From: Actinomycetota bacterium
GTDB lineage: Bacteria > Actinomycetota > Thermoleophilia > Gaiellales > F1-60-MAGs149
NCBI GenBank assembly: GCA_009885805.1
Contig: VFJZ01000066.1
Location: forward strand, 1 to 42,293
DNA length: 42,293 nt
Direction: 5' to 3'
Under the pieces are notes generated by a model. It worked only from the letters and a program-made list of their open reading frames with translations, did not search any database and had not been told where the DNA came from. Below are positions 2,238-19,192 of this stretch, in pieces. Both the position numbers and the translations under genes were made by a program. Positions within the stretch are counted from its first letter, which is position 1, and every line of letters begins with the position of its first letter.

Positions 2238-2753
2238 TCAGACGCCCCACTCCGAGTCGGTGACAGGGAACAGCCCCTGCAGCTGCTCGGCGCCGCGGCG
2301 GTAGACCATGAACGTCCGGCGGAACTCGATCACGACCTCGCGGCGCTGGTTGACGCCGCGGGTGCGGATACCGACGATGCCGACGTGCGGCCGGCTCGCC
2401 GACTCCCGCTTCGAGAGCACCTCGGACTCGGCCCAGAGCGTGTCACCGACGAACACCGGCTTCGGCATGTGGATGCCGTCCCAGGCGAGATTCGCCATCG
2501 CGTTCTCGCTCACGTCGGTCACCGACAGACCCGTTACCAGCGCCAGCGTGAAGGCGGAGTTGACGAGCGGCTTCCCGAACTCCGTCCGCTCCGCGAAGGC
2601 GTTGTTGAAGTGCGACTGGTTCGTGTTCATGGTCAGGTTCGTGAACCAGATGTTGTCGGTCTCGGTCACGGTGCGACCGAGCCGGCTGCGGTAGACATCG
2701 CCGATCTCGAAGTCCTCGAACAGCCGGCCCTGCCAGCCATCGACAACGGCCAT
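2238..2753 (-). CDS. MaoC-like hot-dog fold dehydratase/hydratase
   Basis: The 171-aa product resembles MaoC-family enoyl-CoA hydratases, including 2-methylfumaryl-CoA hydratase-like proteins. Visible family features are the early FEDFEIGDVYRS segment, a TVTETDNIWF helix start with following Asn/His residues (NTNQSHFN), and the PVFVGDTLWAESEVL strand pair. Single-domain MaoC proteins add water across a 2-enoyl-CoA double bond. The start codon shares one base with the stop of the upstream acetamidase-like gene (TGATG), so the two are tightly coupled. Substrate is not readable from sequence. Confidence 0.85.
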   Translation of the reverse strand: MAVVDGWQGRLFEDFEIGDVYRSRLGRTVTETDNIWFTNLTMNTNQSHFNNAFAERTEFGKPLVNSAFTLALVTGLSVTDVSENAMANLAWDGIHMPKPVFVGDTLWAESEVLSKRESASRPHVGIVGIRTRGVNQRREVVIEFRRTFMVYRRGAEQLQGLFPVTDSEWGV

Positions 2754-4270
2754 CAGTCATCTCTCCTCGGTGGGACGTCGTGGAACAGGTCGAGCGGGCA
2801 CAGCGCCGACACGGTCGGGTGCGGTACGTCGACGATCTGCGAGATGCGCAGATCGACGGCCGCCGAGCACAGGATGTACGCCTGCTGCGGCGTCAGCCCG
2901 CGCTCGGCGCCGAGCCAGTCGATCATCGCCAGCACGGCGTTGCGGGCGGCGAGCGTCGCGTCCATCGGCGAGACCGAGCCGTCGTCGCGGAGCGGGAAGC
3001 CGGTCGTGACGACGTGCCGGCGACCGCCGGCCAGGGCCGGCTCCGTCGACTCCACGAGCGGCGTTCGCGGTTGATGCGCCGCGCCGCGCATGACGTCGGC
3101 CCGCAGGCGCACGCGCCCGTGACACTCGACGGCGGTGCCACAGACCTCGCCGTCGCCCTGCGCGAAGTGCACGTCGCCGAGCGACAGCAGCGCACCCTCG
3201 ACATCGACAGCGAGAAAGATCGTCGAGCCGGCCCGGACCTGGCGGACGTCGAGGTTGCCGCCGAGCTCCCGTGGCGGAATCGTGCGCACCGCGGTCGAGG
3301 CGTACGGCTCCGTCGCCGGGACGGCCGACGCCGGCAGCGGCGGCAGCGCTCCGCAGGCCGCCTCCCGCGCCGTCCATTCCGCCAGCCGTGCGTGCGACGG
3401 CGCGACGCCGATGACGCCGACGAACGGATCCGCGGGCACGCGCACACCCGGCATCCGTCCACTCGTGGCGACGCCGTCGCGCAGCGCCCACGTCACGAGG
3501 TACGGATCGGGATACAGGTCGGCGAGGAGGCCGAACCCCGGGATCAGCGCAGTCGAGCCGAAGTCGTCGCAGACGACCTCGAGGATGTCCACGCGCAGGA
3601 CATCGCCCGGGCGTGCGCCGCGGACCGCGATCGGCCCGGTCAGCGGGTGACCGCGGCCGAGGTCGAGGGTCAGGAGATCCCGGTCGAGCGACGTCACCGT
3701 GATCTGCCCGTCGAGGCCGTCGCGGCAGTCGACGGTGATCGTGTCACCCGCGTCGATGGTGATCGCCGGCTCGAGGTCGGGGTGCCAGCGGTTGTGCCCC
3801 GTCTCCGGCAGCTCGACCAGTGGTCGCCGAACCGGTGGCGCCAGCCGGTGGTCGAGGATCGACGCCGCGACGTCGCGCGCGGTCGCCAGCTCCCGCTCGG
3901 TCCAGGTGCGCGGTGCGCGCAGGTCGTGGATCGAGAGGATCGCGACCAGTTCGCCGCCTCGCCGGACCGGCGTGACGATCTGCGCCGCCAGACCGCCGAA
4001 GCGCTCCCTCATCGCGTGGTAGCCGGGATCGTCGGACGCGGCCGCGCAATCCGGCTCGACCACCTGGGCGGCGCCGGCGAGCAGACGAACGACAACCGGC
4101 TGCCGCGTCATATCGAGCCCGGCCACCTCCCGGATCGACGCGACGCCCGGCCCGAGTGCCTCGTGCCGGACCGGGAACACCTCGACTGGGTCGTGCCGGC
4201 GCAGCGTCACGCGCGACGCATCGAGGGCGCCCCGGAGCCGCTCCAGCGCGGCGTCGATCTCCGGGCTCAT
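2753..4270 (-). CDS. GAF domain-acetamidase/formamidase fusion protein
   Basis: I place the start at the ATG at 4270 (MSPEID). It follows a GGAGGAG ribosome site 8 nt upstream; a longer in-frame opening to 4321 runs through the repeated intergenic element. The 505-aa product has an N-terminal GAF-like sensor domain (about 1-145, ending RTWTERELATARDVA). An FmdA/AmdA amidohydrolase follows (about 155-505), with the family segment GDVHFAQGDGEVCGTA near residue 380. The amidase part hydrolyses short amides such as formamide or acetamide in known members. A GAF domain on such an enzyme is unusual and may give ligand control. Its place in a CoA-type operon suggests its substrate is a pathway intermediate or side product. 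Confidence 0.82.
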   Translation of the reverse strand: MSPEIDAALERLRGALDASRVTLRRHDPVEVFPVRHEALGPGVASIREVAGLDMTRQPVVVRLLAGAAQVVEPDCAAASDDPGYHAMRERFGGLAAQIVTPVRRGGELVAILSIHDLRAPRTWTERELATARDVAASILDHRLAPPVRRPLVELPETGHNRWHPDLEPAITIDAGDTITVDCRDGLDGQITVTSLDRDLLTLDLGRGHPLTGPIAVRGARPGDVLRVDILEVVCDDFGSTALIPGFGLLADLYPDPYLVTWALRDGVATSGRMPGVRVPADPFVGVIGVAPSHARLAEWTAREAACGALPPLPASAVPATEPYASTAVRTIPPRELGGNLDVRQVRAGSTIFLAVDVEGALLSLGDVHFAQGDGEVCGTAVECHGRVRLRADVMRGAAHQPRTPLVESTEPALAGGRRHVVTTGFPLRDDGSVSPMDATLAARNAVLAMIDWLGAERGLTPQQAYILCSAAVDLRISQIVDVPHPTVSALCPLDLFHDVPPRRDD

Positions 4271-4358
4271 GCCGTGCGCTCCTCCGGAGCATCGTCGCAC
4301 TGCATTCGCCACCGCACGCAAGGGCCTCCGCTGCGCTCCGGCGGTTGCGTGCTCACGC
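4265..4358 (-). repeat. 94-bp two-hairpin intergenic element, copy 1
   Basis: On the minus strand the element runs from the last codon and stop of the alpha/beta hydrolase gene to the ATG of the GAF-acetamidase gene, exactly filling their 82-bp gap. It differs at only 6 positions from copy 2 at 10790-10883. Hairpin 1 (4314-4352) has an 8-bp outer stem, GCACGCAA with TTGCGTGC, beginning right after the stop codon. Hairpin 2 (4271-4303) pairs a bulged 7+5 bp stem with one mismatch; its 3' arm carries the ribosome-binding site and ends at the start codon. One outer pair of hairpin 1 changes from A-T here to G-C in copy 2, which supports pairing. Confidence 0.85.
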
Positions 4359-5186
4359 CCGGCTCGCCACCCGCTGCAGGAACTCGATCACGACCTGCGC
4401 CGAGAGCTCCGGCAGTTCCATCAGGTTCGTGTGCCCGGAGCCGTCGACGATGTACAACTCGGCGCCCGGGATGGTCTCCGCGATCCAGCGCGCACCCGCA
4501 CCGTCCGGGCCCGCGTCAATCGGCGTCAGGCAGTCCTCGGAGCCGACCATCACCATCGTCGGCGCCGTCACCTTCGGAGCCCACGGGCGGAGGTCCATCG
4601 TCGCCATCGCGTCACACGCTCCGGCAAAGATCGGCACCGAGCAGTTGCGCTCCAGCACTCCCTGAATCACGGGGACCACGCCACGGCCCTGCTCCGTGTC
4701 GAGAAACGCACGCGACAGGCACTTGGTCGCGATCTCCAGCGCCAGCGGCTCGCCGCCCATGCCGTAGGACTCGGCCAGCTTCTTCCATATCTCCCAGTGG
4801 GCGCGCGCCATGTAGTCCGACTTCGCCGACGGGCAGTCGAGGATCAGGCGGTCGACGCGATCCGGGTACTTGCCGGCGAACGCGAGACCGACCATGCCAC
4901 CCATCGAGGTGCCGTGGACATGGCTGCGCTCGACACCGATGTGATCGAGGAGGCCCGCGATGTCATCGGCCCACGTCTCCATCGTGTAGTGCTGTTCCGG
5001 GCGCTCCGACAGACCGTACCCGCGCAGGTCGAACTCGATCACCTTGAAGTGCGGCGTCATCAGCGGTGTCACGAACCCGAAGTTCTCGTGCGCGAAGCCC
5101 GCGCCGCCGATCTGCAGCAGGTGGTCGGTGCCTTCGCCGTGCACGTCGTACCAGATCGTCGCGCCGTTGATCTGTGCTTCCGCCAT
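4353..5186 (-). CDS. alpha/beta-hydrolase fold protein
   Basis: The 277-aa product has the classical fold signature. An oxyanion loop (LLQIGGAGFA) comes first, then strand DLRGYGLS. The nucleophile elbow GTSMGG puts the catalytic Ser near residue 94. The late histidine lies in VDGSGHTNL, with an acidic residue in the MVGSEDCLTP strand. This group includes esterases, C-C hydrolases and lactonases, so the exact reaction is open. The ATG at 5186 is preceded by AGGAGGTTCG, a strong ribosome site. It lies 14 bp after the acyl-CoA dehydrogenase stop and is followed by the repeated 94-bp element. A C-C bond or ester hydrolase would suit a catabolic operon. Confidence 0.88.
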   Translation of the reverse strand: MAEAQINGATIWYDVHGEGTDHLLQIGGAGFAHENFGFVTPLMTPHFKVIEFDLRGYGLSERPEQHYTMETWADDIAGLLDHIGVERSHVHGTSMGGMVGLAFAGKYPDRVDRLILDCPSAKSDYMARAHWEIWKKLAESYGMGGEPLALEIATKCLSRAFLDTEQGRGVVPVIQGVLERNCSVPIFAGACDAMATMDLRPWAPKVTAPTMVMVGSEDCLTPIDAGPDGAGARWIAETIPGAELYIVDGSGHTNLMELPELSAQVVIEFLQRVASRA

Positions 5187-7778: not shown

Positions 7779-9016
7779 CCGCGCTCGAGGATCCCGCCGC
7801 ACCGCCGCAGCTCACGTCGCTGCTGGGCCGAATCGACGACCTCCACGCGGCGGAGGTTGCGCCCCGCGAGGCCGCACTCGCCCCCCGCCTGTCCGACCAG
7901 CGCGGCTACCTCGACGACGATGGCTTCCTGCATCCCGAGATCTGGCAGGCGCGCCGCGAGATCATGCGCGCCGCCGGCGCCGCCGGCGTGTACGCCTCGC
8001 ACCTGCCGGAGGCGATCGGCGGTGGCGGTCTGTCGCGACGGGACATGGTCTTCGTCGAGGAACAGGTCTACGCCTACGGGGTCGGGCTCAACCCGGCGCT
8101 GCTGGCCTGGTCGGAGGGCGCGACGCCGCGGCTGATCTTCTGCCACGACCACCAGCGCGAGCGGTTCGTCGATCCGCTGGTGCGGGGCGAGTACACCAGC
8201 CTCCACGGCGTGACCGAGCCCCACGCGGGCTCCAACTTCTACGACTTCACGACCCGGGCGGAGCGGCGGCCCGACGGTCGTTGGGTGCTGAACGGCCACA
8301 AGGCGTTCATCACGAACGCGTTCGAGGCCGACGTCGCGCAGGTGCTCTGCGTGACGGATCCCGGCGAGGGCAAGCGCTCGTTCACGTACTTCCAGTTCCT
8401 CACGGCGGAGCACCGCGGCAAGGCGTTCCGCACGGGACGGCTGTTCCAGACGATGTGGGGTGACGGCATCACCGGCGAGTTCGTCCTCGACGACCTCGTC
8501 CTCGACGACGACGCGATCATCGGCGAGCGCGGTGACGGCTTCGACATCGCGCTCGCCTCGATCAACTGGACGCGGCTGCGGCGCGGCGGCATGTGCGCCG
8601 GCTGGGGGCGGTTCCTGCTGGAGCGGACGATCGAGCGCGCGACGTCGCGGATCGTCGGCGGGCAGCCGCTTGCCTCGAACCAGGGGATCGCCTGGAAGAT
8701 CGCCGACATGTACGCCGACTGGTACGGCGCGCGTGCCCTCTCGCTGCAGGTCGCGGGCGAGATCGACGAGCCCGGCCCGTGGTGGCGTTCGCCGCGCCCA
8801 CGTGAGGAGGTGCGCAAGATCTGCCTCCTCAAGCTCGCGAACGACGAGGCGTTCCACCGCATTGCCGACACGGCCGTGCAGATTCACGGCGGCGCGGGGA
8901 TGCTGCGCGACTCCGACATCAACAAGCTGTTCCTGATCGCCCGCAACCTGAAGGTGCCTGGCGGCTCGGACGAGGTGCAGCGTTCAACGATCGCCCAGAC
9001 ACTGGGCCTTGGCTGA
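7775..9016 (+). CDS. acyl-CoA dehydrogenase family protein
   Basis: The 413-aa product has the acyl-CoA dehydrogenase fold. LHGVTEPHAGSNF and GHKAFITNAF form the FAD and substrate region, NQGIAWKIADMYADW is in the C-terminal helix bundle, and QIHGGAGMLRDSDINKLF is the closing motif. It is clearly different from the dehydrogenase at 5201-6364, so the window encodes two non-redundant acyl-CoA oxidising enzymes. The start ATG overlaps the LLM stop, and the stop lies 11 bp before the SDR gene with a GGGGAGA ribosome site between. The three genes form a plus-strand operon. Confidence 0.9.
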   Translation: MTALEDPAAPPQLTSLLGRIDDLHAAEVAPREAALAPRLSDQRGYLDDDGFLHPEIWQARREIMRAAGAAGVYASHLPEAIGGGGLSRRDMVFVEEQVYAYGVGLNPALLAWSEGATPRLIFCHDHQRERFVDPLVRGEYTSLHGVTEPHAGSNFYDFTTRAERRPDGRWVLNGHKAFITNAFEADVAQVLCVTDPGEGKRSFTYFQFLTAEHRGKAFRTGRLFQTMWGDGITGEFVLDDLVLDDDAIIGERGDGFDIALASINWTRLRRGGMCAGWGRFLLERTIERATSRIVGGQPLASNQGIAWKIADMYADWYGARALSLQVAGEIDEPGPWWRSPRPREEVRKICLLKLANDEAFHRIADTAVQIHGGAGMLRDSDINKLFLIARNLKVPGGSDEVQRSTIAQTLGLG

Positions 9017-9027
9017 GGGGAGACCGA

Positions 9028-9792
9028 ATGCGACTGCGAGACAAGGCGACACTGGTGACGGGCGGCGGCTCCGGCATCGGGCGCGAGACGGCGCTCCGGT
9101 TCGCCGCCGAGGGAGCGCGCGTCGCCGTCGCCGACGTGCGCGCGGAGGCTGCCGCCACAACTGCGGCGGAGATCGGCGGTGATGCCGTCGCCGTCACGAT
9201 CGACGTCACTGCGCGAGCGTCGGTGGAGGCCGGCGTCGCGACGGCAGTGGCGGCGCTCGGCGGGCTCGACGTGCTCGTCTGCAACGCGGGCGTCACGATC
9301 GTCGGCTCGGTGATGGACCTGACCGAGGAGCAGTGGGACGCCGAGCTCGACACGAACCTGAAGTCGATCTTCCTCTGTGCGAAGGCAGCCTGGCCGCACC
9401 TGGTCGCCGGTGGCGGCGGCTCGATCCTCTCGACCGCCTCGATCGCCGGCACCTGGGCGATCCCCGACGACGCCGCCTACTGCGCGTCGAAGGCGGGCGT
9501 GATCATGCTGACGAAGTGCATGGCGCTCGACGGCGCGAAGGTGAACGTCCGCGCCAACTGCGTCTGCCCCGGCTACACGCAGACGCCGATGATCGAGGGC
9601 TACTTCCAGGCGCAGCCCGACCCGGAGGGCGCCCGCGCCTTCGCCGCCGGGATGCATCCGCTCGGCCGCCTCGGCGTGCCGGCCGACCACGCCGCCGCCT
9701 TCGTCTACCTCGCCTCCGACGACGCCGCCTGGGTGACGGGCACCGCGCTGGTCGTCGACGGCGGCCTCACCTGCGGGGTGTGGGGAGGCTGA
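9028..9792 (+). CDS. short-chain dehydrogenase/reductase (SDR)
   Basis: The 254-aa classical SDR has the dinucleotide motif GGGSGIG (residues about 12-18), VCNAGVT, the catalytic Ser in STASIAG, and the YCASK catalytic pair. The C-terminal VVDGGLT segment is typical. An Asp-rich VAVADVR at the end of the second strand suggests NAD(H) preference. It likely oxidises a hydroxyacyl or alcohol intermediate of the same operon. The last 26 bp overlap the 3' end of the convergent LLM gene, a tail-to-tail overlap with no room for a terminator. Confidence 0.9.
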   Translation: MRLRDKATLVTGGGSGIGRETALRFAAEGARVAVADVRAEAAATTAAEIGGDAVAVTIDVTARASVEAGVATAVAALGGLDVLVCNAGVTIVGSVMDLTEEQWDAELDTNLKSIFLCAKAAWPHLVAGGGGSILSTASIAGTWAIPDDAAYCASKAGVIMLTKCMALDGAKVNVRANCVCPGYTQTPMIEGYFQAQPDPEGARAFAAGMHPLGRLGVPADHAAAFVYLASDDAAWVTGTALVVDGGLTCGVWGG

Positions 9793-10795
9793 GGAGCGGG
9801 AAGACGCGCTCCGCGGCACGGCGCATCGATGCCTGCACGAGCTCGTCCGGCATGCCCGGCCAGCCGAACCGGAAGATCAGCGTCGTCAGGCCGAGCCGGT
9901 CGACCTGCTCCTGCAGCTCGGCGGCGCAGCGCTCCGGTCCACCGATCACGAACCGCCCGCCGGCGGCGAGTTGCTCCCACTCGCGGTCGATCGTGTCGCC
10001 CGCCGGTAGCGCCTCGTCCTGCCCCCACTGCACGTACGCCCGGTACTTCGACTCGAGATAGGGACGGGCCTCGCGCACGGCGGCGCCGTCGTCCGCGCCG
10101 ACGTACAGCTCCTTGATCGTCGCCAGTTCGGTGACGGGCGGCCGGCCGGCGGCGACTCGCGCGGCGTGGAACAGACCGACCTGGCGCTCCAGTTCGGCGA
10201 CGTTGGTGTGGGGGTTCAGCAGCCACGAGTCGGACAGGCGCGCGGCCCGTTCGACGGCTGCGTCGGCGTTCGCGGCGATCCAGATCGGCGGCCGCGGGCG
10301 CTGGACCGGGAGCAGAGCGAGCCGCTGCTCGTGCAGGCGGTAGCCGGGGCCAGCGGCGGTGACCGTCTCGCCCTCGAGTAACCGGCGGACGACGGCGAGC
10401 TTGTCGGTGAACACCCGCACGCGCCGCCCGTCGACGCCGAACGCCTCCTCCTCGGGCTCGCGGTAGCCGAGGCCGACACCGAGTACGAAGCGGCCGTCAC
10501 AGATCGCGTCGAGCGTGGCGGCGTTCTCCGCGACCTCGACCGGGTTCAGCAACGTCAGCAGCAACACACCGGTGTGGAGTCGCATCTCGCCCGCCTCGGC
10601 GGCGACGCGCGCGAGCAGCGGCACCGGTTGGGGCATCTGGTACGGGTCGGTGAGGAAGTGCTGACCGGCGGCGACGATGTCGAAGCCGAGATCACGGGCG
10701 AGTCGGGTCTGTGCACAGGCCTCGGCGATGATCCGGGTCGGCCCGACCGTGTCCGACTGCTGGACGTTGAGGAAGATCCCGACCTTCACGCTCAT
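9767..10795 (-). CDS. LLM-class (F420-dependent) flavin oxidoreductase
   Basis: The 342-aa product starts MSVKVGIFLN at 10795; the frame opens further upstream only through the repeated intergenic element. LARDLGFDIVAAGQH, LHTGVLLLTLLNPVEVAE and CDGRFVLGVGLGYREPE mark a bacterial luciferase-like monooxygenase/oxidoreductase. It is only distantly related to the LLM protein at 6828. Its ribosome site (AAGGAG) lies in the 3' arm of a predicted hairpin of the intergenic element, 8 nt before the ATG, so initiation may be structurally limited. It is the last gene of the cyclase-methyltransferase-DUF3891 cluster. Confidence 0.88.
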   Translation of the reverse strand: MSVKVGIFLNVQQSDTVGPTRIIAEACAQTRLARDLGFDIVAAGQHFLTDPYQMPQPVPLLARVAAEAGEMRLHTGVLLLTLLNPVEVAENAATLDAICDGRFVLGVGLGYREPEEEAFGVDGRRVRVFTDKLAVVRRLLEGETVTAAGPGYRLHEQRLALLPVQRPRPPIWIAANADAAVERAARLSDSWLLNPHTNVAELERQVGLFHAARVAAGRPPVTELATIKELYVGADDGAAVREARPYLESKYRAYVQWGQDEALPAGDTIDREWEQLAAGGRFVIGGPERCAAELQEQVDRLGLTTLIFRFGWPGMPDELVQASMRRAAERVFPLLSLPTPRR

Positions 10796-10883
10796 GCCGT
10801 GCGCTCCTTCGGAGCATCGTCGCACGGCATTCGCAACCGCGCGCAAGGGCCTCCGCTGCGCTCCGGCCGTTGCGCGCTCACGC
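10790..10883 (-). repeat. 94-bp two-hairpin intergenic element, copy 2
   Basis: This copy fills the 82-bp gap between the DUF3891 stop codon and the start of the second LLM gene, plus a few flanking bases. Hairpin 1 (10839-10877) has the outer stem GCGCGCAA/TTGCGCGC starting directly after the stop. Hairpin 2 (10796-10828) pairs GCCGTGC with GCACGGC and GCTCC with GGAGC around a GAA loop. The AAGGAG ribosome site is in its 3' arm and the ATG follows the stem. Relative to copy 1 there are six differences: one compensated pair, one that repairs a mismatch, and one in the hairpin 2 loop. Confidence 0.85.
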
Positions 10884-11600
10884 CGTCAGGACCGCCGTCC
10901 GTCGCACCACCGGCGCCGCCCAGAACGCGTCGACGAGCGCGGCGGCGTCCGTCCAGGAGTCCAGCGGCAGCGTCCGAACCGGCACGCCGATCTCCAGCCG
11001 GTCGCCCGCGAACGGGAACGGGGCGAGGCGGGCGCCGGCGGCCGTTGGCTCGACGACGAGCACGCCATCTCCCGGGAGCGCGATCTCCATCCGCCCCTGC
11101 CCGGCCGGATCGCCGCGGCAGAGCCACAGCGACAACCGGTCGAACACCTGCAGCAGCACGTAGTCGTCCCACTCGACCTGCCCGTCGTGGAGCGCCTCCT
11201 GCTCGGCGACGAAGGCGTCGACGAGACCCTGCGCCTCGGGCGCCCGGGTGAGCCGCAACGCCGGCTGCGTTCCGTACCGGCCCGTATAGATGCCGGCCGC
11301 GTGCTTCGACACGAGGAGCCCGGCGCCGCGGTCCTCGGCCAGCACGGCCTGGACTCCGGCGCGGTAGAACCGCAGATGCTCGGTGACGTCGACGTCGAGG
11401 AAGTTGCAGGGCCGGCCTGTCGCCGGGTTCGGCTGCGGCCGCCGCTCCCACTCCTCCCAGCCGACGTCGTGCAGGCGGGCGGCGGTCACGAGCGAGGGGT
11501 GCAGCGGCGGGGCCCAGGCTGCGGCGAGGTCACCCGAGATGACGGCGTGGTCGACCTGGGTGACGATCTCGGCTTCGGCGCCGGTGGGGACGACGATCAT
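10878..11600 (-). CDS. DUF3891 family protein
   Basis: The 240-aa product begins MIVVPTGAEAEIVTQVDHA and contains RLHDVGWEEWE and NPATGRPCNF. This His-Asp layout is typical of DUF3891 proteins and is reminiscent of HD-type metal sites. The function of the family is not established. The ATG at 11600 overlaps the methyltransferase stop by 4 bp (ATGA). The longer open frame to 12977 is antisense or out-of-frame readthrough and is rejected. The stop at 10878 directly abuts the first hairpin of the intergenic element. Confidence 0.85.
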   Translation of the reverse strand: MIVVPTGAEAEIVTQVDHAVISGDLAAAWAPPLHPSLVTAARLHDVGWEEWERRPQPNPATGRPCNFLDVDVTEHLRFYRAGVQAVLAEDRGAGLLVSKHAAGIYTGRYGTQPALRLTRAPEAQGLVDAFVAEQEALHDGQVEWDDYVLLQVFDRLSLWLCRGDPAGQGRMEIALPGDGVLVVEPTAAGARLAPFPFAGDRLEIGVPVRTLPLDSWTDAAALVDAFWAAPVVRRTAVLTA

Positions 11601-14115: not shown

Positions 14116-14215
14116 CAGTAGGACACGATTCCATGAGGATTTACCGTGGTTTTCAGCAGTCTCACCCCCGGGGCTGCTTGCGCGCGTGCAAACGCGATCG
14201 AAGGGTGGTCGGTTC

Positions 14216-17200
14216 ATGAGACGACGGACTATGCGAAGAGGGTTAGGCGCCGTTCTCGGCGTCGCGGCCCTGATGGGAGGAGGCGCGGCGAACGCGTCGG
14301 CCGCCGAGTTCATCAGGTCCGACCTCGACTTCGTCCTCCAACAGATCAGGATCGCGGAGGCCCACGCCGGCGGCGGCGATCTCCTCGGCCCCGGCGCGAA
14401 TCAGGTCGGCAGCCCCGTGCTGCCGTTCGGCCTGCGTACCGTCGACGGCTCCTTCAACAACCTGCAGCCCGGGCAGGAGGACTTCGGCGCAGCCGATCAG
14501 CTCTTCCCCCGGATGCTCAATGCGACAGGCTCCTTCCGCGCTGGCCAGGCGTTCGGCGACTTCGGCAGCAGTATCACCCAGGACGTCGACGGACCCGGCC
14601 TGAACCAGAACATCGGCGATGCGACGTCGTACGCGAGCGGTCGCAACGTTTTCGACACCGGGCCGCGCGAGGCGTCGAACCTGGTCGTCGACCAGACCGC
14701 CCGGAATCCCTCGGCCGCTCAGGAGGCGCTCGAAACCGGCGCGTTGACCGTCGACGACGGCAAGGCGAACATCGATCCGTTCTTCTTCGGTAACGTCGCG
14801 CCGGACGAGGGCCTGTCCGCCCCGTTCAACACCTGGTTCACCTTCTTCGGCCAGTTCTTCGACCACGGCCTCGACCTGCTCACGAAGGGCGGCAGCGGCA
14901 CGGTGTTCGTGCCCCTGAACGACGACGACCCGCTGATCGCGGGTGACAACGGCATCCTTGGTGACGCCGACGACTTGCCGGCGGCGATGCAGTTCATGGC
15001 GCTCACCCGCGCCACGAACCTGCCCGGCCCCGACGGCATCCTCGGCGACAACCTGCTCACCGCCGGCGACGAGAGCGCCGACGACATCCACGAGCACACG
15101 AACACGACGACGCCGTTCGTCGACCAGAACCAGACGTACACCTCGCACCCCGCCCACCAGGCGTTCCTGCGTGAGTACGAGCTGAACCTGGCCGGCCTGC
15201 CCGTCGCGACCGGCGCCATGGCCGACGAGCCACGTGTCGGCGGCGGTCTCGCCCGCTGGGCCGATGTCAAGGCACAGGCTCAGGCGATGCTCGGCATCGA
15301 GCTGCGCGACATCGACGTGCTCAACGTGCCGCTGATCATGACCGACCCGTACGGCCGGTTCTCGCGCGCCGGAAACAACTTCGCGCAGCTCGTTCCGGAC
15401 ACCGATCCCGGCCCGGGCGTCACGCCTGGCGCGCCGATCGCGGGCGATCCCGCGGCGAACGGCGGCCTCGGCATCTCGACGATCGACGCGGTCAAGACCG
15501 GCCACGGCTTCCTCGACGACATCGCCCACGCGGCGGTGCCGTTCGGCGACACCGACGGCAATCCCGGCACTCCGAAGGGACCTCTGGCCCCGGACGCCGA
15601 CCTCGTCATCACGGCCGGCCCTCAGGCCGTCGGCGAGTACGACGACGAACTGCTCGACGAGCACTTCATGACCGGTGACGGCCGCGGCAACGAGAACATC
15701 GCGCTGACGACCGTCCATCACGTCTTCCACGCCGAGCACAACCGCCAGGTCGGCCTCATCAAGACGACGATCAACGCGCAGCCCGACGCCGCCTTCCGCA
15801 ACGAGTGGAAGATCGGCGCCCTCGCCGCCGAGGCGACGAACGAGTGGAACGGCGAGCGCCTGTTCCAGGCGGCCCGCTTCATCACCGAGATGCAGTACCA
15901 GCACCTCGTGTTCGAGGAGTTCGCTCGCAAGGTGCAGCCGCAGATCAACATCTTCGCCGGCTACCAGAGCGAGATCAACCCGGCGATCGTCGCCGAGTTC
16001 GCCCACACGGTGTACCGCTTCGGCCACACCATGCTCACCGAGGAAGTCAGCCGGACGACGGCGGCCGGCCTTGACGCCAGCGAGCGTCTCCTGACCGCAT
16101 TCCTGAACCCGGAGATGTTCGACGAGAACGAGAGCCTGTCCGCCGCCGAGGGTGCCGGCCAGGTTGTCCGCGGCACGACGCGAACGCGGGCGAACGAGAT
16201 CGACGAGTTCATCACCGACGCAGTCCGCGACAACCTCGTCGGCCTGCCGCTCGACCTCGCCGTGCTGAACATCAGCCGCGGCCGGGACACCGGCATTCCG
16301 TCGCTGAACGAGGCGCGCCGACAGTTCTTCGCGTCGACGAGCCACTCGGCACTGCGTCCGTACGAGAGCTGGAACGACTTCAAGCTCGGCCTGAAGAACC
16401 AGCACTCGATGGTGAACTTCCTGGCCGCGTACGGCACACACGCCACCATCACGGGCGCGACGACGGTGGCAGCGAAGCGCGACGCCGCGATCGCGATCGT
16501 CTACGGCCCGAACGGTGCTGACGGCATCCTCGCCGACGACGTGCTCACGCTCGTCAACGAGGCGGCCGACAATCCGACCGCTCCCCAGCCGCCCGACGCG
16601 GCGGACTTCCTCGCCAGCCCCGCCTCTAGCTCCGGCGTCGACTCGATCGACTTCTGGATCGGCGGCATCGCCGAGCGCACGTGGCCCTTCGGCGGCCTGC
16701 TCGGCTCGACCTTCAACTACGTCTTCGAGACGCAGTTGGAGCACCTGCAGGACGGCGACCGCTTCTACTACCTCGGCCGCACCGCGGGGATGAACTTCCT
16801 CACGGAGCTCGAGGGCAACACGTTCGCCAGCATGATCATTGCGAACACCGACGTCACGCGCCTGCCGGCCGATGTGTTCTCCCGGCCGGACTACATCTAC
16901 GAGATGGCGCAGGTGCCGATCGTGCTGCCCGCAGTGGACGACCCGCTCACGATCGATGCCAACGAGTCGCAGCTGATCCGCATGGCGGACGGCACGGTGC
17001 GATTCGTCGGCGGCGAGCACATCGTCTTCGGCGGCACTGCCGGTCCCGACCGGATGCGTGCCGACGACGGCGACGACAGCGTCTTCGGTGACGGCGGGAA
17101 TGACCGGCTCGAAGGCGGCGCCGGCAACGACGCACTCGTCGGCGGTGAGGGCAACGACATCATCACCGACACCTTCGGCGACGACAACGTCAAGGGCGGG

Positions 17201-19192
17201 AATGGCCATGACGCCATCAACCCCGGCTCCGGCTTCGACCTCATCCTCGCCGGCAACGGTGACGACTTCACTATCGGCGGCGAGGATCCGTCCGAGACCT
17301 TCGGCGGCGGTGGCGACGACGTCATCGACGCCGGCGAGGACCACAACACCATCTTCGGCAACGAGGGTGACGACTGGATCCAGGGCGGCGACGGTGCCGA
17401 CCTGCTCCAGGGCGGCAACGGCGATCCGTTCCAGACGGACACCGTGACCGGCCACGACGTCATCATCGGTGAAGGCGGCAACGACGACTACGACTCCGAG
17501 GGCGGCGACGACATCATGGTCTCCGGCCCCGGCATCGAGCGCAACGAGGGCATGCTCGGCTTCGACTGGGTGACCCATCGCGGCGATCCGCAGGCAGCCG
17601 TGTCTGACATGCGGCTGACCGGCCTGCTGCCGCCCGACCTCGACAACATCCGCGATCGCTTCGACATCGTCGAAGGCCTCTCCGGATGGAACTTCAACGA
17701 CATCCTCCGAGGCGACGATCTCAACAACGCCGCTCCTCCCGGGATCATCAACAACGACCTGACGGAGGCGATGACCGATCCGGCCAACCCGGACGCGATC
17801 CAGGGCATCCGCGGCGTGCTCGGCATGCAGGCGGGCGACAACGCCACGCAGACGTCGTTCAACTCCGGCAACATCATCCTCGGCGGTGCCGGCAGCGACA
17901 TCATCGAGGGCCGTGGCGGCGACGACCTGATCGACGGCGACGCCTGGCTGAACGTACAGCTCGACGACGGCCCCGACGGCCTGCTCCCGCAGGACGACAT
18001 GGGTGCTTTCCAGGCCGCCATCTTCGCCGGCACGCTCGACCCGTCCGCGCTGCAGATCGTCCGCAGCATCGTCACCGGTGGTCCGACGAACAGCGACACG
18101 GTCGTCTTCTCGGACGTGTTCGCCAACTACACGATCACCGAGAACCCGCTCGACAACAGCTGGACGGTCGCGCACGACGACGCCCCGGCAGCTGATGGCA
18201 CCGACACCGTCCGCAACGTCGAGTTCTTCCAGTTCCTGGATGGCCTCGCCGCTCCGGGTACGGCCGTCACGCCGGGCGCGCTCGGCACGGTCGCTCTGGC
18301 CGGACTGACGCTCGGTGCTCCGACCGAGGACACGCCGATCGTGGCCACCCCGACCGTCACCGATCCCGATGTGGCGGCTCCGGGAGCGCTCGTGTTCACG
18401 TTCGAGTTCCAGGCCAACGGCATCCCCGTCGGTACGGGTGACACGTTCACCCCGACGGACGCCGAGGTCGGCCAGACGATCCAGGTTCTGGCGACCTACA
18501 CCGACGACAACGGCGTCGTCAAGACGGTCGCCTCCGTGGTGACTGGACCGGTCGTCAACGTCAACGACCTCCCTGGCGGGCTGCTGCGGATGAGCCGCAA
18601 CACGCCGCGGGTCGGTCGCGTGATGACGGCGATCAACCGGGTCACGGACGACGACGGCCTCGCTGGAGCGACGTTCGCGTTCCAGTGGGAGACCGAGACG
18701 GCCCCCGGCGTGTGGACGGACTCCACCGGCCCGAACGCCGACACCGACACCTACACCGTGGTCGTAGCTGATGGCGGCTTCCGGATGCGGGTGCGGATGA
18801 ACTACACGGACGACCGCGGGACGCCGGAGGAAGTCTTCTCCGACCCGACCGCGAACCCGACGCGCGTCAACCTCGTGCTCCTCGCGGCGAACGTGCCGGT
18901 CGGAGTGACGAGCAGCGCCGTCCGACGGCGCGGCCTTCCGATCGTGCTGCGAACACAGGGAAGCACCAGCCTGGTGCGGGTCCGCGTGTTCGACGCTCGG
19001 AACCCGAAGGCGGCGAAAGCCACCGTCTACGTCAAGGTCCGGTCGGGACGCGTCTCGACCGCGATCCGGAACGCCGCGGTGCGCCGCGTGCTCGGTAAGG
19101 GCGGCAGCTTCACGATCGAGCTGACCCCGGGTCTGACCCGGACGAAGCTCGGCGAGTCGACGATCCGCCGCGTGACGGTCGTCCGCCGCTAA
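14216..19192 (+). CDS. secreted animal-type haem peroxidase with RTX calcium-binding repeats
   Basis: The 1658-aa product starts MRRRTMRRGL at 14216, giving a basic-hydrophobic signal peptide ending near ANASA; a GTG 30 bp upstream is possible. The peroxidase domain (about 20-900) keeps the expected residues. The distal His is H217 in GQFFDHGLD. Catalytic Arg R490 and haem-linking Glu E493 are in GDGRGNEN. The proximal His is H604 in YRFGHTML, and NISRGRDTGIP follows. RTX nonapeptide repeats such as GGAGNDALVGGEGND lie at about 939-1062 and 1222-1242. Two Ig-like modules and a basic C-terminus end the protein. This architecture matches bacterial peroxicins and Mn-oxidising MopA-like proteins. 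The substrate is unproven; a strong terminator follows. Confidence 0.9.
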   Translation: MRRRTMRRGLGAVLGVAALMGGGAANASAAEFIRSDLDFVLQQIRIAEAHAGGGDLLGPGANQVGSPVLPFGLRTVDGSFNNLQPGQEDFGAADQLFPRMLNATGSFRAGQAFGDFGSSITQDVDGPGLNQNIGDATSYASGRNVFDTGPREASNLVVDQTARNPSAAQEALETGALTVDDGKANIDPFFFGNVAPDEGLSAPFNTWFTFFGQFFDHGLDLLTKGGSGTVFVPLNDDDPLIAGDNGILGDADDLPAAMQFMALTRATNLPGPDGILGDNLLTAGDESADDIHEHTNTTTPFVDQNQTYTSHPAHQAFLREYELNLAGLPVATGAMADEPRVGGGLARWADVKAQAQAMLGIELRDIDVLNVPLIMTDPYGRFSRAGNNFAQLVPDTDPGPGVTPGAPIAGDPAANGGLGISTIDAVKTGHGFLDDIAHAAVPFGDTDGNPGTPKGPLAPDADLVITAGPQAVGEYDDELLDEHFMTGDGRGNENIALTTVHHVFHAEHNRQVGLIKTTINAQPDAAFRNEWKIGALAAEATNEWNGERLFQAARFITEMQYQHLVFEEFARKVQPQINIFAGYQSEINPAIVAEFAHTVYRFGHTMLTEEVSRTTAAGLDASERLLTAFLNPEMFDENESLSAAEGAGQVVRGTTRTRANEIDEFITDAVRDNLVGLPLDLAVLNISRGRDTGIPSLNEARRQFFASTSHSALRPYESWNDFKLGLKNQHSMVNFLAAYGTHATITGATTVAAKRDAAIAIVYGPNGADGILADDVLTLVNEAADNPTAPQPPDAADFLASPASSSGVDSIDFWIGGIAERTWPFGGLLGSTFNYVFETQLEHLQDGDRFYYLGRTAGMNFLTELEGNTFASMIIANTDVTRLPADVFSRPDYIYEMAQVPIVLPAVDDPLTIDANESQLIRMADGTVRFVGGEHIVFGGTAGPDRMRADDGDDSVFGDGGNDRLEGGAGNDALVGGEGNDIITDTFGDDNVKGGNGHDAINPGSGFDLILAGNGDDFTIGGEDPSETFGGGGDDVIDAGEDHNTIFGNEGDDWIQGGDGADLLQGGNGDPFQTDTVTGHDVIIGEGGNDDYDSEGGDDIMVSGPGIERNEGMLGFDWVTHRGDPQAAVSDMRLTGLLPPDLDNIRDRFDIVEGLSGWNFNDILRGDDLNNAAPPGIINNDLTEAMTDPANPDAIQGIRGVLGMQAGDNATQTSFNSGNIILGGAGSDIIEGRGGDDLIDGDAWLNVQLDDGPDGLLPQDDMGAFQAAIFAGTLDPSALQIVRSIVTGGPTNSDTVVFSDVFANYTITENPLDNSWTVAHDDAPAADGTDTVRNVEFFQFLDGLAAPGTAVTPGALGTVALAGLTLGAPTEDTPIVATPTVTDPDVAAPGALVFTFEFQANGIPVGTGDTFTPTDAEVGQTIQVLATYTDDNGVVKTVASVVTGPVVNVNDLPGGLLRMSRNTPRVGRVMTAINRVTDDDGLAGATFAFQWETETAPGVWTDSTGPNADTDTYTVVVADGGFRMRVRMNYTDDRGTPEEVFSDPTANPTRVNLVLLAANVPVGVTSSAVRRRGLPIVLRTQGSTSLVRVRVFDARNPKAAKATVYVKVRSGRVSTAIRNAAVRRVLGKGGSFTIELTPGLTRTKLGESTIRRVTVVRR

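Follow-up and report, generated by a model that had tools for sequence, protein, structure and literature searches.

Two gene junctions in the window (the whole stretch of 42,293 nucleotides analyzed here) carry the same 94-bp sequence between otherwise unrelated genes. What is this element, and why does it fill exactly the space from a stop codon to the next start codon? The first-pass annotation left open whether it is a small mobile palindromic element aimed at operon junctions or an RNA device that controls translation of the downstream gene. The copies lie at 4265–4358 (copy 1) and 10790–10883 (copy 2, located by repeat search), both on the minus strand. These coordinates proved correct, and the identity of 94% was reproduced.

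Read on the minus strand, the element is an open mini-cistron, a feature that the first-pass annotation does not mention; it overlaps both neighbors by 4 nt and leaves them intact. Copy 1 comprises a unit of 86-nt period plus the repeated DTGAGC ends (D is A, G, or T), and runs on this strand from GCGTGAGCACGCAACC to GGAGGAGCGCACGGCATGAGC. Its mini-ORF (4267–4356, minus strand, GTG to TGA) has 29 amino acids, VSTQPPERSGGPCVRWRMQCDDAPEERTA. The start of the mini-ORF overlaps, as GTGA, the stop codon (TGA, 4353–4355) of the upstream alpha/beta hydrolase gene (4353–5186, minus strand, PF00561). The stop of the mini-ORF overlaps, as ATGA, the start codon (ATG, 4268–4270) of the downstream gene, which carries GAF and acetamidase/formamidase domains (2753–4270, minus strand, PF01590 and PF03069). 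Copy 2 has the same layout. Its 29-residue mini-ORF, VSAQRPERSGGPCARLRMPCDDAPKERTA (10792–10881, minus strand), begins over the stop codon (10878–10880) of a DUF3891 gene (10878–11600, minus strand, PF13030, with 11600 as a provisional 5' end). It is followed by a luciferase-like monooxygenase gene (9767–10795, minus strand, PF00296).

Two hairpins lie within each copy. In copy 1, hairpin 1 occupies 4316–4350 (minus strand, alignment columns 10–44) and hairpin 2 occupies 4269–4305 (minus strand, columns 55–91), with a 3' arm that extends into the downstream start codon. The Shine–Dalgarno-like sequence AGGAG (4279–4283, minus strand, columns 77–81), which would serve the downstream gene, is contained in both hairpin 2 and the mini-ORF. 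In copy 2, the alignment places hairpin 1 at 10841–10875 and hairpin 2 at 10794–10830 (both minus strand), the latter including AGGAG (10804–10808) and the start codon (10793–10795). The description given beforehand thus holds at both window copies: the element reaches from the upstream stop codon into the opening two codons of the next gene, hairpin 1 comes immediately after the stop, and hairpin 2 holds the ribosome-binding site. Elsewhere in the window, 14186–19192 codes for a protein of 1668 residues that combines an animal-type haem peroxidase domain with RTX calcium-binding repeats.

Copies in the genome and the mini-ORF

A DNA search of the genome (3.56 Mb in 101 contigs) found 23 copies of the element with E values from 1.8e-19 to 2.2e-43, far beyond chance. 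A covariance model built from these copies recovers the same 23, all on the gene strand. Neither of the refuting outcomes named in the first-pass annotation, an absence of further copies or copies that do not favor junctions, occurred. Apart from L022, which lacks its 5' half, and L023, which is cut by a contig end, the copies are complete, and all 21 complete copies are in gene orientation and end in a start codon. The 23 copies occupy 16 sites, if the ends of contigs C51 and C76 are counted as one probable array. C76 has four complete units and one cut by the contig end, hence at least five, and C51 likewise ends beside one unit. The C51 unit is preceded by a cupin gene and the C76 array is followed by a ROK gene; these two genes are adjacent in the relative G001, so the two contig ends are probably the two sides of one long array. 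Tandem pairs are present on C21 and C27. The units of each two-unit site share a degenerate Shine–Dalgarno sequence (AAGGGG in L005/L006, CAGGTG in L010/L012), and most others differ. Two further copies (L020 and L011, C16:6910–7000 and 8925–9017) lie inside a single HyuA–HyuB–isochorismatase hydantoinase operon. The truncated L022 (C32:34281–34369) still provides hairpin 2, a Shine–Dalgarno sequence, and a start codon to its downstream gene, which by eye is adenosine-deaminase-like.

The mini-ORF is intact in 21/21 complete copies. It extends over 28 or 29 codons between the left DTGA and the right RTGA, in line with the two unit classes of this genome (periods of 83 and 86 nt), which are one codon apart. 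Together with the 80-nt period of a divergent copy from genus g3, all periods are 2 mod 3. A length of 2 mod 3 locks the ORF between the two 4-nt overlaps, and is the only length class that allows them. At the right end, the next frame starts at the DTGA in every complete copy, and at non-array sites this frame is a long gene; the start codon was scored wherever the contig extends far enough beyond the element (that of L021 stops there). On the left, 12 of the 15 sites with an intact left end have a DTGA that coincides with the stop codon of a credible upstream gene. L008 and L014 are placed at a start codon without a stop overlap, the upstream gene ending earlier or being absent, and the stop overlap of the C27 pair is doubtful since the upstream reading frame looks spurious. 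Since L008 and L014 lack an upstream stop at the insertion point, the true target looks like the DTGA of the start codon rather than the junction itself. The mini-ORF is a better explanation than the hairpins of why the element spans stop to start. The element reads DTGAGC at both ends in nearly all copies. The two bases that follow DTGAGC at the left end equal those of the right flank at 5/15 sites (p ~0.03), a hint that the target duplication may be longer than DTGAGC.

Empty sites and distribution in relatives

Eight of the sites have counterparts in relatives of the same family, in which the same gene pair is present and the element is not. Five of these are a bare GTGA overlap: HyuB/isochorismatase (CCCC-GTGAGC-AGC in G004), the XDH subunits (CTCGC-GTGAGC-GTC in G001), LivG/LivF (GGGGC-GTGAGC-GCC in G004), PgsA/PlsY (CGG-GTGATC in G001 and GCG-GTGACG in G002), and cupin/ROK (GGGA-GTGACG in G001). 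The remaining empty junctions do not overlap. These are polyprenyl synthase/MqnE, which reads GGTC-TGACATGGCG in G001 and GGGATGAGC...ATGAGCATGGCG in the genome studied here (G000), HyuA/HyuB in eleven genomes, and the PilZ-like gene in G001. Since relatives hold the same gene pairs without the element, five of them as a bare GTGA overlap, the copies are, judged by sequence comparison, precise insertions into otherwise bare junctions.

A DNA search of 100 relatives found no copy in any other genome, and the same was true of a covariance-model search with strict filters across 299 genomes of the class. An exact-pattern scan of genome contigs gave no element upon rescoring among the 80 matches listed, and four viral-contig loci likewise gave none upon rescoring. 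A laxer model search of 40 genomes (our own and 39 relatives) yielded one copy, L285 in G002 (genus g3, same family), which from its sequence we judge to be a true but divergent member. It consists of GTGAGC, the mini-ORF VSSSQRAQRLTCGGEPRGTIERSEATG*, and GTGAGC, with a period of 80 nt, and by inspection lies between ABC ATPase and permease genes. No copy besides L285 was found in 357 kb sampled from G002. The similarity of L285 to the family described here exceeds that of shuffled sequences (p of 0.001 or less), so the element family is older than one species, yet rare. A weak match in G020 (L286) has no DTGA ends and was regarded as chance.

Mechanism and alternative explanations

We consider it quite probable that the element is a non-autonomous mobile mini-cistron of the type of the mycobacterial interspersed repetitive units (MIRUs), made near-neutral by translational coupling. 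The element would insert in gene orientation at the DTGA of a start codon, mostly in a 4-nt stop/start overlap (ATGA or GTGA) within an operon. The old DTGA and the ribosome-binding site preceding it would then serve the mini-ORF. Its last codons would provide a new Shine–Dalgarno sequence (AAGGAG) 8 nt before the second RTGA, which would act both as the stop of the mini-ORF and as the new start of the downstream gene. Ribosomes finishing the upstream gene would re-initiate on the mini-ORF, melt hairpin 2 as they pass through, and start once more at the downstream gene. With such re-initiation, which presupposes that the mini-ORF is translated and coupled in vivo, an insertion would be of little cost to the host. 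The same signal at both ends would also allow head-to-tail units in variable number, as at MIRU-VNTR loci. Transposition would presumably be provided in trans by a separate enzyme. In favor of a maintained frame, no stop-creating change was seen among distinct minor alleles where ~2.9 were expected (p ~0.05), although common descent of the copies may account for part of this openness. The exceptions to AAGGAG in the two tandem pairs L005/L006 and L010/L012 count against this explanation.

The hairpins invite a different reading, namely an RNA device that has been selected at junctions for control of downstream translation. In the 21-copy alignment, hairpins 1 and 2 fit 95% of cells, and the covariation score lies above all 500 shuffles; changes on both sides are seen at four pairs, compared with 2.8 in shuffles. 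Compensatory changes occur in hairpin 1 at columns 10/44, 11/43 (nine copies), and 19/35. In hairpin 2, columns 56/90 change from U-A to C-G in 9/21 copies, tracking the start codon ATG or GTG. We take the hairpins to be real, on moderate evidence with limited covariation. The paired changes at 56/90 and 11/43, and the enclosure of the Shine–Dalgarno sequence and start codon by hairpin 2, are consistent with a regulatory role. However, the folding energy of copy 1 as a single sequence is ordinary and no better than that of shuffles (z −0.66), and an Rfam scan of the window gave no match above the gathering score. The genes that follow the element belong to no common pathway (lipid synthesis, ComEC, menaquinone, topoisomerase, luciferase-like, and ABC transport), and the element is absent from the orthologous junctions of relatives. 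Ribosomes translating the mini-ORF would also unfold hairpin 2. We therefore regard the device as improbable. Between the two possibilities raised initially, the mobile element at operon junctions is upheld by placement, orientation, and empty sites, and the translation-controlling device is not. That the element is a dispersed gene encoding a functional small peptide is less probable still, and we give this hardly any weight. The frame is open in every complete copy, with a start and often a Shine–Dalgarno sequence. Selection on the peptide was rejected, however, as pN/pS is ~1.15 in the mini-ORF frame and 0.70–0.71 in the other two forward frames. The number of amino acids also varies, the peptide has no Pfam match, and tandem sites hold multiple copies. 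What is maintained seems to be an open frame rather than a peptide product.

A further possibility concerns the route of mobility. The element could be a REP/REPIN-like palindrome moved as single-stranded DNA by a Y1 transposase (RAYT or IS200/IS605-type), with the hairpins as ends, DTGA as the target, and the ORF as a by-product of insertion at DTGA in one orientation. It would fit the two hairpins and their limited covariation, the short and constant target, and the presence of three Y1_Tnp genes in the genome (L024, L025, and L026 on contigs C33, C98, and C16). Like REPINs, the element is short, multi-copy, palindromic, and non-autonomous. Read by eye, each Y1 gene is flanked by its own, different palindromes, for example TGTCGCAA..TTGCGACA at L024, and no ends matching the element were seen in these flanks. 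A genome-wide repeat search found no element copy near the three genes, which resemble separate RAYT/REP systems. REPINs are inverted REP doublets placed at random in extragenic space beside their RAYT (PMC3116915). The element, in contrast, is tied to start codons, keeps a single orientation, and has an open coding frame, and no inverted REP doublet was found in it; its two hairpins are different, with no unit in inverted copy. On this evidence, the REP/REPIN view is possible but unlikely. A Y1 route could nevertheless mobilize the mini-cistron, and would be compatible with the explanation that we prefer.

Comparison with mycobacterial MIRUs

MIRUs, reportedly described by Supply et al. in 1997, underlie tuberculosis strain typing. 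We know of no enzyme that moves them, and to our knowledge the manner of their movement is not settled. A 2025 review (PMC12548453) describes them as apparently mobile units that insert at start codons and carry an ORF coupled at −4 nt spacing, the coupling likely limiting the impact on the target gene. Using a MIRU core pattern, we searched 60 genomes from the genus to which Mycolicibacterium chubuense belongs. Matches were found in 31 of the 60, and a reversed control pattern gave none. The number of MIRUs is strongly variable over this sample (L234–L263), from none in 29 genomes to a maximum of 54. Under the criteria used here, 15 of the 30 MIRU loci read have an open mini-ORF between two DTGA, most of them near MTRAGDDAERSDEEERRx*. 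The fetched MIRUs are mostly 53-nt units, and a period-53 array is present in L235.

Both systems consist of short repeats, dispersed and in tandem arrays of variable number, most units examined being 2 mod 3 in length. In both, start codons are the site of insertion, and an open mini-ORF bounded by DTGA at each end points the same way as the gene, at a spacing of −4 nt. Compared feature by feature with the MIRU architecture, the element has multi-copy units, an overlapping mini-ORF ended by DTGA, and start-codon insertions at sites that are empty in relatives. The units described here are 83/86 nt with two hairpins, whereas the fetched MIRUs are ~53 nt. The end sequence is also more uniform here, DTGAGC in almost every case, than in MIRUs, where DTGA is followed by different bases at different sites. 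The host also differs, being a deep-branching actinobacterial lineage outside the mycobacteria, probably within Thermoleophilia, and the sequences have no significant similarity. In an rpoB tree, the family of this genome lies in a sister clade of the sampled actinobacteria, including Mycolicibacterium and Streptomyces, with which it forms a well-supported group. The enterobacterial RU-1/2/3 elements (PMC2759123) are likewise small mobile repeats with open reading frames, but their frames are fused into genes, whereas here a separate cistron overlaps both neighbors by 4 nt.

Whether the element and the mycobacterial MIRUs are true homologues, derived from one actinobacterial element, is doubtful. 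The architecture is the same, and there are short common stretches, GCCG(T)GCGACGATGC between this genome and MIRU and ACGAT.C.GAGCGAAGCGA between the genus g3 copy and MIRU. Pairwise shuffles gave p of 0.05–0.11 for the consensus of this genome and 0.014 for the genus g3 copy. Nhmmer profile searches between this family and MIRU were not significant in either direction, however, and short matches are likely in low-complexity, GC-rich, coding-like sequence. MIRU-like insertion at start codons is already known in mycobacteria; here it appears in a different lineage, without demonstrable sequence kinship.

The non-autonomous mini-cistron that we favor provides a second family with clean empty sites, in a lineage whose separation from mycobacteria lies close to the base of the Actinomycetota. 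It makes it possible to compare what is common to both families (DTGA ends, a length of 2 mod 3, and a Shine–Dalgarno sequence near the right end) with what is incidental. It is conceivable, though we put it forward tentatively, that MIRU-type mini-cistrons are an old and widespread form of mobile DNA in actinobacteria that targets the signals for translation start and stays harmless through coupling. If so, this family and the sister-genus copy would be the first described outside mycobacteria within the literature searched. The findings suggest that translation across a mobile element may make it almost unnoticeable to the host.
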